Assembly: GCF_030345095.1 (NCBI RefSeq)
Contig: NZ_CP128360.1
Location: 1,178,001 to 1,242,000 of the forward strand
Length of the DNA: 64,000 nucleotides
Direction: 5' to 3'
From: Solwaraspora sp. WMMA2056
GTDB lineage: Bacteria; Actinomycetota; Actinomycetes; Mycobacteriales; Micromonosporaceae
The translations under genes were made by a program, and so were the position numbers. A model generated the notes under the pieces. It had not been told where the DNA came from. It saw only the letters and a list, made by a program, of their open reading frames with translations, and made no database searches. Shown here one piece after another: positions 32,351 to 40,662 of this stretch (position 1 is the first letter of the stretch; every line of letters starts with the position of its first letter).

Positions 32351-33118
32351 CTATCGATCCTTCCGTGCGATGCCCGAGGGCCTGCTCCGCGCGCCGCTCC
32401 TGGCCCTGCCGCCCTGCGTCGGCACCTGCTGGGAGCCTCCTGCTGCCGGTTCGGCGGCCGCCGGTGCCGGCTGCCGGCCGGCCGACGCGCGTTGCCGGCC
32501 GGCCGGGCGCCAGGTGCGGCCGTTGGCGTAGACGATCCGGAACCCCAGGTACGCCGCCAACGGTGCCCAGTGCGACGAGCCCATCCGCAGCTCGGCGGCG
32601 TTGTTGTAGACCCCGTTGGCGAGTACGTCGAGCAGTACCGTCTCGAACGCGGCCGACTCCACCCAGTCGACCTCCCGGGTGTAGCCGCAGATCAGCGCGG
32701 CACCGGTGGTGGCGAGGAACTCCCGCATCCGCACGTCGGAGGCTCGCAGCACCGAGCAGCTGCCGAAGTAGAGCCGCTTGCCGGCACACCGGCCGGCCAT
32801 CTGGTCGGCGACGTCGTCGAGGTCGACGTGGTGGCGTTCGGTCAGGCAGAGCCGGGTCGGCTCGCCGTGCATCGCGAAGAAGCCGACCCGGTAGTCGGCG
32901 TACTGGCGTAGCAGCCAGCGGTCCAGGAAGTAGGCGAGCTCGTCGGGGGTGGCGGCGTCCCGGTGGATGAACCGGATCCGGCCGAGCCGTTCCAGCAACT
33001 CCAGCGTGGGCAGCACGGATCCACGTTCGTTGAGGTCACGGTGCCACTGACCTTCGATGCAGAAGACACCACCGCGCGCCACGTCGCCCCCCACCGTGCC
33101 GGTCCGCCCGGTGACCAT
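32351..33118 (-). CDS. Caspase/CHAT-like protein (DUF6642-like)
   Basis: Protein of 255 residues. The first 205 residues resemble the caspase fold: strand YRVGFFAMHGEP carries the candidate catalytic His84, strand KRLYFGSCSVL carries the candidate Cys121, and ATTGAALICGYTREVDWVESAAFE follows as in CHAT peptidases. The last 50 residues are Ala/Arg/Gln-rich low complexity. There is no signal peptide. It is third in an operon with a PRC-barrel-like gene (eight bases away) and a small gene, all behind a LexA box. Protease activity is inferred from two short motifs only; the substrate is unknown. Confidence 0.72.
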   Translation of the reverse strand: MVTGRTGTVGGDVARGGVFCIEGQWHRDLNERGSVLPTLELLERLGRIRFIHRDAATPDELAYFLDRWLLRQYADYRVGFFAMHGEPTRLCLTERHHVDLDDVADQMAGRCAGKRLYFGSCSVLRASDVRMREFLATTGAALICGYTREVDWVESAAFETVLLDVLANGVYNNAAELRMGSSHWAPLAAYLGFRIVYANGRTWRPAGRQRASAGRQPAPAAAEPAAGGSQQVPTQGGRARSGARSRPSGIARKDR

Positions 33119-33126
33119 ACCGCCGG

Positions 33127-33486
33127 TCAGGCGGGTGGTGTCACCTCGGATCGGGAAACGGTCAGTCGGACCGTGCCGACCTCGACCGCCGCGATCTGGT
33201 CCGCCCCGGCGTAGCCGACGCCGTCGATCTTGATGAACCCGGTACGCAGCAGCCGCGCGGCGATGTCCGGAGCGGTGGTCGGCTCGTCGCCGGCCTGTGG
33301 GTGCGGCACCTGGTCGCCGATCGCGTCCTGCGGGTCGACGTCGCCCTCGACGGCCACCGCCGCCGGGTCGCCGACCTGGGCCAGGGCGACCCGGCCGACG
33401 ACATCACCGTGTACGTCGACCACCGTCATCCCAGGCGCTGTCCGCTGGATCGGGTCCGATGTCCCGAATTCGTCGACGCTGCTCAT
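33127..33486 (-). CDS. PRC-barrel-like protein
   Basis: Small protein of 119 residues with the beta-barrel pattern of PRC/DUF2171 proteins: GMTVVDVHGDVVGRVALAQVGD near the N-terminus and TGFIKIDGVGYAGADQIAAVEVGTVRLTV at the C-terminus. These domains often bind other proteins or RNA. Its ATG at 33486 overlaps the stop of the upstream small gene by four bases. It is the middle gene of the LexA-box operon. Confidence 0.75.
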   Translation of the reverse strand: MSSVDEFGTSDPIQRTAPGMTVVDVHGDVVGRVALAQVGDPAAVAVEGDVDPQDAIGDQVPHPQAGDEPTTAPDIAARLLRTGFIKIDGVGYAGADQIAAVEVGTVRLTVSRSEVTPPA

Positions 33487-33773
33487 GGTTGCCCGGTTCC
33501 CCGCGCCGGCGGCGGACAAACCTCTTCGGCCGTCCGGTGGCGGGCAGCTGGGGGTCCGTCGGAGACCTCCCGCCAGTCGCCCGGCCCGGCGAGCAGGTGA
33601 CGGACCATGTCGTACGCCGCGTCCTCGGTGCCGTGTTCGGTGAACCGGGACCGTCCGTCGGCCCCGCCCACCCGGGCCTCCACGTACCAGTGGTCGGCGT
33701 CGGTACGCAGGAAGACGTCCCGCCGGGCGAGCCGCCCCCACACCCCGTTCCACCAGTGCTTACGTTGCTCCAC
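33483..33773 (-). CDS. Small protein of unknown function, first gene of LexA-box operon
   Basis: Protein of 96 residues, rich in Trp and charged residues at the N-terminus (QRKHWWNGVWGRLARRDVFL), with a central WYVEAR stretch and a Pro/Arg-rich tail. I do not recognise a family. The GTG start lies six bases after a TAGGGT -10 element, so the mRNA is probably leaderless. A perfect LexA box abuts that -10 element on its far side. Confidence 0.7.
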   Translation of the reverse strand: MEQRKHWWNGVWGRLARRDVFLRTDADHWYVEARVGGADGRSRFTEHGTEDAAYDMVRHLLAGPGDWREVSDGPPAARHRTAEEVCPPPARGTGQP

Positions 33774-33779
33774 CGGGCG

Positions 33780-33785
33780 ACCCTA
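33780..33785 (-). promoter_or_regulatory. -10 element of the LexA-box operon
   Basis: TAGGGT read on the minus strand, six bases before the GTG at 33773. It touches the LexA box, so bound repressor would block the promoter. Confidence 0.6.
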
Positions 33786-33801
33786 TCGAACATGTGTTCG
33801 A
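33786..33801. promoter_or_regulatory. LexA (SOS) box
   Basis: TCGAACATGTGTTCGA matches the actinobacterial LexA consensus TCGAAC-N4-GTTCGA at every fixed position. It abuts the -10 element of the three-gene operon that ends in the caspase-like gene. Confidence 0.85.
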
Positions 33802-34094: not shown

Positions 34095-34547
34095 TCAGCG
34101 GAACTGGCCCGGCTGACCTGGCTGGCCCGGTTGCCCCGGCGTGCCTGGCTGGCTTGCGCGGGCGACCAGCGCGTCCCGGATCTCGGTCAGCAGCTTGATC
34201 TCCTCGCTCGGCGCGGCGGGCGGCGGCTCCTCGCCCCGACGGCGCCGCTCGGCCAGCCGATTCATCGGCAGGACGACCAGGAAGTAGAGCGCGGCGGCGG
34301 TCAGCGCGAACGTGATCACCGCGTTTACGAACGCCGGCCAGTCGAACTCGACTCCGCGGACGGTGACCACCGAGCCCGCGACGCCGTCTCCGCCGGTCAG
34401 CAGCACTGTCAGTAGCCGGATGAACGGTTCGAGGAACGACTTGGTCAACTGGGTGACGACAGCGGTGAACGCCGCACCGATCACGATGCCGACCGCGAGG
34501 TCGATGACGTTGCCGCGCAGGATGAAATCCTTGAAACCCTTAAGCAT
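34095..34547 (-). CDS. mscL: Large-conductance mechanosensitive channel MscL
   Basis: Inner-membrane channel of 150 residues that opens on hypo-osmotic shock. The N-terminus is characteristic (LKGFKDFILRGNVIDLAVGIVIGAAFTAVVTQL), a second helix is VNAVITFALTAAALYFLVVLP, and the charged cytoplasmic bundle is EEIKLLTEIRDALVAR. The C-terminus ends in a short Pro/Gly/Gln repeat. The ATG at 34547 is the family start; the open frame extends to 35642 without protein-like sequence. Confidence 0.95.
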   Translation of the reverse strand: MLKGFKDFILRGNVIDLAVGIVIGAAFTAVVTQLTKSFLEPFIRLLTVLLTGGDGVAGSVVTVRGVEFDWPAFVNAVITFALTAAALYFLVVLPMNRLAERRRRGEEPPPAAPSEEIKLLTEIRDALVARASQPGTPGQPGQPGQPGQFR

Positions 34548-40646: not shown

Positions 40647-40662
40647 TAGAACATGTGTACGA
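40647..40662. promoter_or_regulatory. LexA-like box with two mismatches
   Basis: TAGAACATGTGTACGA differs from the box at 33786 at only two positions and keeps the same ATGT centre. It overlaps a TACGAT -10 element (40658-40663) of the FAD oxidase gene and a TCTAAT (40645-40650, minus strand) that could serve the divergent peptidase gene. Confidence 0.5.

Follow-up and report, generated by a model that had tools for sequence, protein, structure and literature searches.

A probable LexA-repressed, leaderless SOS unit in Micromonosporaceae, with a separate CHAT-like gene behind it in one genus

Small, unrelated SOS inhibitors occur in other bacteria, and the SOS inhibitors of cell division described in actinobacteria are, to our knowledge, membrane proteins. 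The closest described regulon is that of LexA in Streptomyces venezuelae, where many targets are of unknown function (PMC9380542). In our literature search, matches for an SOS box or LexA in Micromonospora or Micromonosporaceae concerned other topics as judged by their titles, and we found no work joining the CHAT domain, LexA, and the SOS response. Here we describe a three-gene locus in a 64,000-nucleotide stretch of the Solwaraspora sp. WMMA2056 genome (NZ_CP128360.1), referred to below as the window. The box, its fixed spacing to the start codon, the -10 element, the association between genes 1 and 2, and the separateness of gene 3, all seen by comparison with relatives, point to a LexA-repressed unit from which gene 3 stands apart. 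We consider it probable, from sequence comparison, that this is a leaderless SOS unit of Micromonosporaceae that consists of gene 1 with or without gene 2, and that the CHAT-like gene 3 lies behind it in this genus only.

What places this locus under LexA? The SOS box, TCGAACATGTGTTCGA, is a palindrome at positions 33,786 to 33,801, assigned to neither strand, and it matches TCGAAC-N4-GTTCGA exactly, with 0 mismatches. Read along the minus strand, the box is followed directly by the -10 element TAGGGT (33,780 to 33,785), then by six bases, and then by the GTG of gene 1 at 33,773. A whole-genome pattern scan found 2 perfect sites of this kind in 7.01 Mb, and the reversed pattern, scanned as a control, gave 0. 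An earlier reading of this DNA, made from the letters alone and called the sequence-only reading below, had reported both the perfect box and the abutting TAGGGT six bases before a GTG, and both are borne out.

The same architecture recurs in other members of the family. A box with at most one mismatch was present in 46 of 46 distinct upstream sequences (perfect in 37, one mismatch in 9); these sequences are related to one another and all come from best-scoring loci, being the distinct ones among 60 overlapping loci (the best 30 of 110 genomes by gene 1 and the best 30 of 48 by gene 2). Across this set, the spacing from box to start codon is 12–14 nt and the half-site positions are 85–100% identical, compared with 28–74% for the 40 bases 5' of the box. 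The N4 core takes 16 forms, with ACAT in 16 of the 46, and the T, A, G, and T of the TA..GT element directly after the box are 93–100% conserved. Because the box is found in every one of these sequences at so constant a distance from the start codon, gene 1 appears to be a conserved SOS gene of Micromonosporaceae. By comparison across homologues the box appears to be functional, and the predicted LexA control of gene 1, and of gene 2 where gene 2 follows, is strongly supported. The LexA box that the sequence-only reading had proposed to look for in other Micromonosporaceae is in place ahead of gene 1 in these loci.

Could the palindrome be the site of a repressor other than LexA? There are only two perfect sites in the genome, and the second lies before a PNPOx-like gene, not a DNA-repair gene. 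However, the same half-sites, with one mismatch, form a box 10 nt before the GTG of a DNA polymerase IV-type gene (Pfam IMS) in this genome, and degenerate half-sites precede lexA itself. The lexA gene, which is present in the genome, carries two such degenerate boxes, TCGTACAGATGTTTGA and TAGAACATGAGTACGA, with two mismatches each, upstream of the DNA-binding domain. Moreover, the half-sites agree with the SOS boxes of S. venezuelae as given in section 7 and Table 1 of PMC9380542. A different repressor is, in our judgment, scarcely credible, and we retain LexA as the protein that is expected to bind here.

Two further sites were observed in the course of these scans. The second perfect box (L001:1485-1516; G000:C1:924704) abuts a TAGAAT that stands 13 nt before the ATG of the PNPOx-like gene (Pfam), so that this promoter has the same leaderless design as that of gene 1; a dcd-like frame, recognized by eye, lies on the other side of the box. 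Within the window, TAGAACATGTGTACGA at 40,647 to 40,662 differs from the SOS box by two mismatches, is nearly equal to the lexA box TAGAACATGAGTACGA, and is located just upstream of a gene with an FAD_binding_4 domain (Pfam).

Gene 1 (P0001; 33,483 to 33,773, minus strand) encodes 96 residues from the GTG at 33,773, as had been read, and is leaderless by position. It belongs to a hydrophilic, Trp-rich family of about 70–110 residues with an HWWNG..RRDV motif, and W7, W8, N9, R17, D19, V20, G36, A53, W67, and R68 are invariant in an alignment of 58 sequences. Homologues are present in 110 of 150 Micromonosporaceae genomes. Matches in a sample of the phylum were confined to 2 of 396 genomes, both within Micromonosporaceae; distant members may be missed in this sample because the first pass scored only 13 candidates per genome. 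With the window's protein as query, Pfam, NCBIfam, PADLOC, and PHROGs all gave nothing up to E 1, and the 58 members gave scattered weak Pfam matches only (best E 0.061), none of them to WGR. Searches with gene 1 also gave no match in the PDB, among plasmids, or in the phage collection, and one match in viral contigs. That match, on a predicted viral contig (L153:2983-3222), adjoins a holin-like frame recognized by eye and has a degenerate LexA-like palindrome directly at its start.

What might the gene 1 protein do? A WGR-like fold was first guessed from the residue pattern and then tested by profile comparison. Against a two-sequence WGR profile the probability was 8%, yet this profile ranked 1 of 252 entries; against a five-sequence profile (hhalign) it was 42%, with E 2.7e-4, over 27 columns only. 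None of 150 column shuffles attained this score, and no match arose from four unrelated pairs of profiles. The W-G-R-x-G signature is absent from the gene 1 alignment, which has G-G-x-x-G at that place. Given the 27-column length of the match and the missing signature, we treat it as a lead rather than an assignment, and describe the protein as weakly WGR-like. In a bolder reading, gene 1 would be a WGR-type sensor, reduced to a minimum, that detects broken DNA ends and is produced in the SOS response alone; in this genus it would be wired to the CHAT-like protease as a damage-triggered switch for arrest or death; we regard this as a long shot.

A different role for gene 1 would be that of an SOS checkpoint factor acting on cell division or growth rather than a DNA-binding protein. 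Its small size, its position behind a LexA-type promoter, and its restriction, as far as seen, to one lineage of the phylum sample would all suit such a factor. However, the protein is hydrophilic (GRAVY -0.97), unlike the membrane-type division inhibitors of actinobacteria, and the family includes paralogues without the box. Among 21 loci of distant gene 1 paralogues, 9 have a box (up to two mismatches, within 300 nt) and 12 do not; the boxless ones are apparently a second, non-SOS branch of the family, to judge from their upstream sequences. We hold the checkpoint role to be rather unlikely and favor a soluble protein that may bind nucleic acid or a repair partner. Several of the boxless paralogues (VRVERHWWNGD-like, in the series L123-L143) have a TATAC-like -10 element just before the start codon.

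The neighborhood upstream of gene 1 was also inspected. An mscL gene (Pfam) lies at 34,095 to 34,547 in the window, and a MscL-type gene was seen by eye upstream in L167, L168, and L169, although not in L166; L167 and L168 belong to other genera. Because the MscL-type gene recurs in these loci, mscL followed by gene 1 may be the older order.

Gene 2 (P0002; 33,127 to 33,486, minus strand) encodes 119 residues and overlaps gene 1 by 4 bp (ATGA), in agreement with the sequence-only reading. That reading had also called the protein PRC-barrel-like, a description for which its homologues speak: at a Pfam limit of E 1, DUF2171 was found in 27 of the 28 sequences compared (best E 2.2e-7) and PRC in 8 of them (best E 0.021). 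It does not extend to the window's own copy, which matches neither DUF2171 nor PRC at the same limit. Gene 2 is rarer than gene 1, being found in 48 of the 150 Micromonosporaceae genomes. Gene 1 and its box were present in all 30 loci chosen by gene 2 (the best 30 of 48), and gene 2 stood beside gene 1 in 14 of the 30 loci chosen by gene 1 (the best 30 of 110), the other 16 having no gene 2 match nearby. Among the 18 weaker gene 2 genomes, one (G148) has its gene 2 and gene 1 matches on different contigs. In another genome, G001 (locus L070), the two genes are in divergent orientation.

Where does gene 3 begin? The sequence-only reading had placed a 255-residue protein here, starting at ATG 33,118, and this start is rejected. 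Homology begins at GTG 33,082 (VARGGVFC), which is preceded by the RBS-like GGTGGGGGG (33,087 to 33,095, minus strand), and the start is very probably this GTG, giving a protein of 243 residues (P0003; 32,351 to 33,082, minus strand). In L063, from the same genus, the upstream sequence shows that the frame from the equivalent of ATG 33,118 runs into a stop. The rejected ATG lies inside TATGGT (33,114 to 33,119, minus strand), a candidate -10 element of gene 3 situated roughly where orthologues carry a GGTAACGT-type element.

Upstream of gene 3, genomes of this genus have TATGGT or TAGGGT (in L065 this lies only partly within the inspected stretch). Of 36 queried gene 3 loci, 20 were captured by the pattern used for the upstream comparison. 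GGTAACGT was found upstream of the gene 3 start exactly in 11 of 15 other orthologue loci, as a variant in 3, and not in the remaining 1. Likewise, most of the 20 captured loci have an RBS-like sequence of the GGGGAGGTGG or GGTGGGAGGCG type ahead of the start codon. It is likely that gene 3 in this genus has its own RBS and its own predicted promoter.

Does gene 3 belong to the SOS unit? It is present in 51 of 150 Micromonosporaceae genomes, counting short partial matches in two of them (G051 and G057), and it adjoins genes 1 and 2 in the 7 listed genomes of this genus. Outside the genus, in the genomes with listed positions for both genes, gene 3 and the best gene 1 homologue are at least 0.8 Mb apart or on different contigs, and three genomes with gene 3 (G012, G050, and G061) lack any gene 1 match within an E limit of 0.001. 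In 29 of 29 loci outside the genus, the 300 nt ahead of gene 3 contain no LexA box, even with 2 mismatches allowed; one of these loci offers only about 134 nt of upstream sequence. The same 29 loci, whose named bearers are all from genera that we take to be Micromonosporaceae, showed no copy of gene 1 or gene 2. Even in this genus, the gap between genes 2 and 3 ranges from 44 nt here to between 44 and 152 nt in the other six genomes, as calculated from coordinates.

These observations bear on whether the three genes work together in this genus as a single unit, in which damage would induce genes 1 and 2 and, by read-through, gene 3, whose product would cleave a target and arrest or kill the cell. 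The three genes do adjoin in the 7 listed genomes, the His and Cys of gene 3 are conserved, and nothing terminator-like was detected between genes 2 and 3 by a simple consensus scan, so that in this genus transcription from the SOS promoter may run on into gene 3. However, none of the 29 relatives has a LexA box ahead of gene 3, the gene has its own RBS and likely promoter, and its distance from gene 2 varies. We judge a single unit to be improbable, and gene 3 is best taken, on present sequence comparisons, as a separate His/Cys enzyme candidate. A leaderless operon of three genes as a conserved unit is rejected, as gene 3 elsewhere is separate and boxless and in this genus has its own RBS and likely promoter.

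The sequence-only reading had seen three tightly packed genes in a leaderless operon and suspected a protease or cell-death module induced by DNA damage. Tight packing holds for the overlapping genes 1 and 2; gene 3, once its start is set at GTG 33,082, follows after 44 nt and is not tightly packed. The outcome for box and gene order in other Micromonosporaceae, for which that reading had proposed a search, is likewise divided: the box accompanies gene 1, whereas adjacency of gene 3 is seen in this genus only. As a general system, a damage-induced protease or death operon is unsupported.

What kind of protein does gene 3 encode? The motifs FFAMHGEP and LYFGSCSVL noted earlier are present, with the active-site candidates renumbered as His72 (codon 32,867 to 32,869, minus strand) and Cys109 (codon 32,756 to 32,758, minus strand). 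All 19 of the aligned gene 3 sequences, down to 29% identity, share His72, Gly73, and Cys109, which answers the question of conservation that the earlier reading had raised. The window's protein matches DUF6642 (PF20347) in Pfam with E 7.5e-19 and 68.5 bits (cut-off 27), as do 19 of 19 aligned members. Compared with a 12-sequence CHAT profile, DUF6642 gave E 1.2e-6 and a probability of 91% over 78 columns, with HG and C in register; a first comparison with two sequences had given 18.8%. In the reverse direction, the DUF6642 family profile ranked 1 of 119 entries, single DUF6642 members ranked 2, 3, and 6, and the best non-DUF6642 entry had E 0.011, the decoys in this comparison being predicted open frames and not curated proteins. 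Not one of 100 column shuffles came up to this score, and no match was obtained with four unrelated pairs of profiles. In a single-sequence comparison, two CHAT domains from the same genome ranked 4 and 65 of 132 behind DUF6642 members at ranks 1–3. A CHAT domain from this genome matches TPR-CHAT/Csx29 structures. DUF6642 members have no Pfam CHAT or Peptidase_C14 match, and a PDB search gave no CHAT match. The profile comparison with its controls and the invariant His and Cys both speak for a caspase/CHAT-like gene 3 product, and we infer that gene 3 encodes a remote relative of the CHAT proteases, a protease-like protein of the His/Cys CHAT type.

DUF6642 has a patchy distribution. It occurs in 4 of 296 phylum genomes (two of them in Micromonosporaceae), in 2 of 17 genomes of one further family, and in 0 of 14 control genomes. 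Gene 3 has no match in the phage collection or in viral contigs and one match among plasmids, and none of the three proteins of the locus matches PADLOC at E up to 1. The plasmid match (L150:4791-5519) is a DUF6642 gene from Brevibacterium; some 1.3 kb before it lies a gene annotated as belonging to an abortive infection family. No work naming DUF6642 was found in our literature search.

How would such a unit operate? LexA would sit on the box, which overlaps the promoter spacer. DNA damage would activate RecA, LexA would be cleaved, and a leaderless mRNA for genes 1 and 2 would be made; damage induction itself is what we infer from the sequence. The gene 1 protein may serve as a small, soluble adaptor for nucleic acid or for a repair partner, and a divergent WGR-like fold might mediate the binding; the gene 2 protein would be its putative PRC-barrel-like partner. 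Gene 3 would be driven mainly by its own promoter, and read-through from the SOS promoter may occur in this genus only.

If this reading is right, several consequences follow. A consistently conserved predicted LexA target can be named for Micromonosporaceae, a family of antibiotic producers. Box, -10 element, and start codon together span 31–33 bases, a compact promoter that is a candidate for a clean DNA-damage reporter. Gene 1 defines a protein family that is unmatched in Pfam and shares the invariant core WWN...R.DV...G...A...WR, and the link from DUF6642 to CHAT suggests a His/Cys enzyme for a domain of unknown function.

How does the locus compare with known systems? It has the same type of box at its promoter as the actinobacterial LexA/SOS regulon described for S. 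venezuelae (PMC9380542); gene 1 differs in that its homologues in the phylum sample all fell within Micromonosporaceae. The WGR domain of PARPs and YehF can be aligned with a segment of 27 columns of gene 1 (G-x-x-G and the strand and helix that follow), although gene 1 lacks the W-G-R signature and a Pfam match. Gene 2 resembles the DUF2171/PRC-barrel proteins through its homologues, the window's copy being the sole one of the 28 that does not match DUF2171. Gene 3 and its aligned members belong with DUF6642, for which Pfam gives no function and for which the CHAT link is drawn here by profile comparison. Compared with CHAT proteases (PF12770; TPR-CHAT/Csx29 of Craspase), the gene 3 protein is short, without a recognized TPR or sensor domain and without a Pfam CHAT match, but its HG and C motifs fall in register with theirs.
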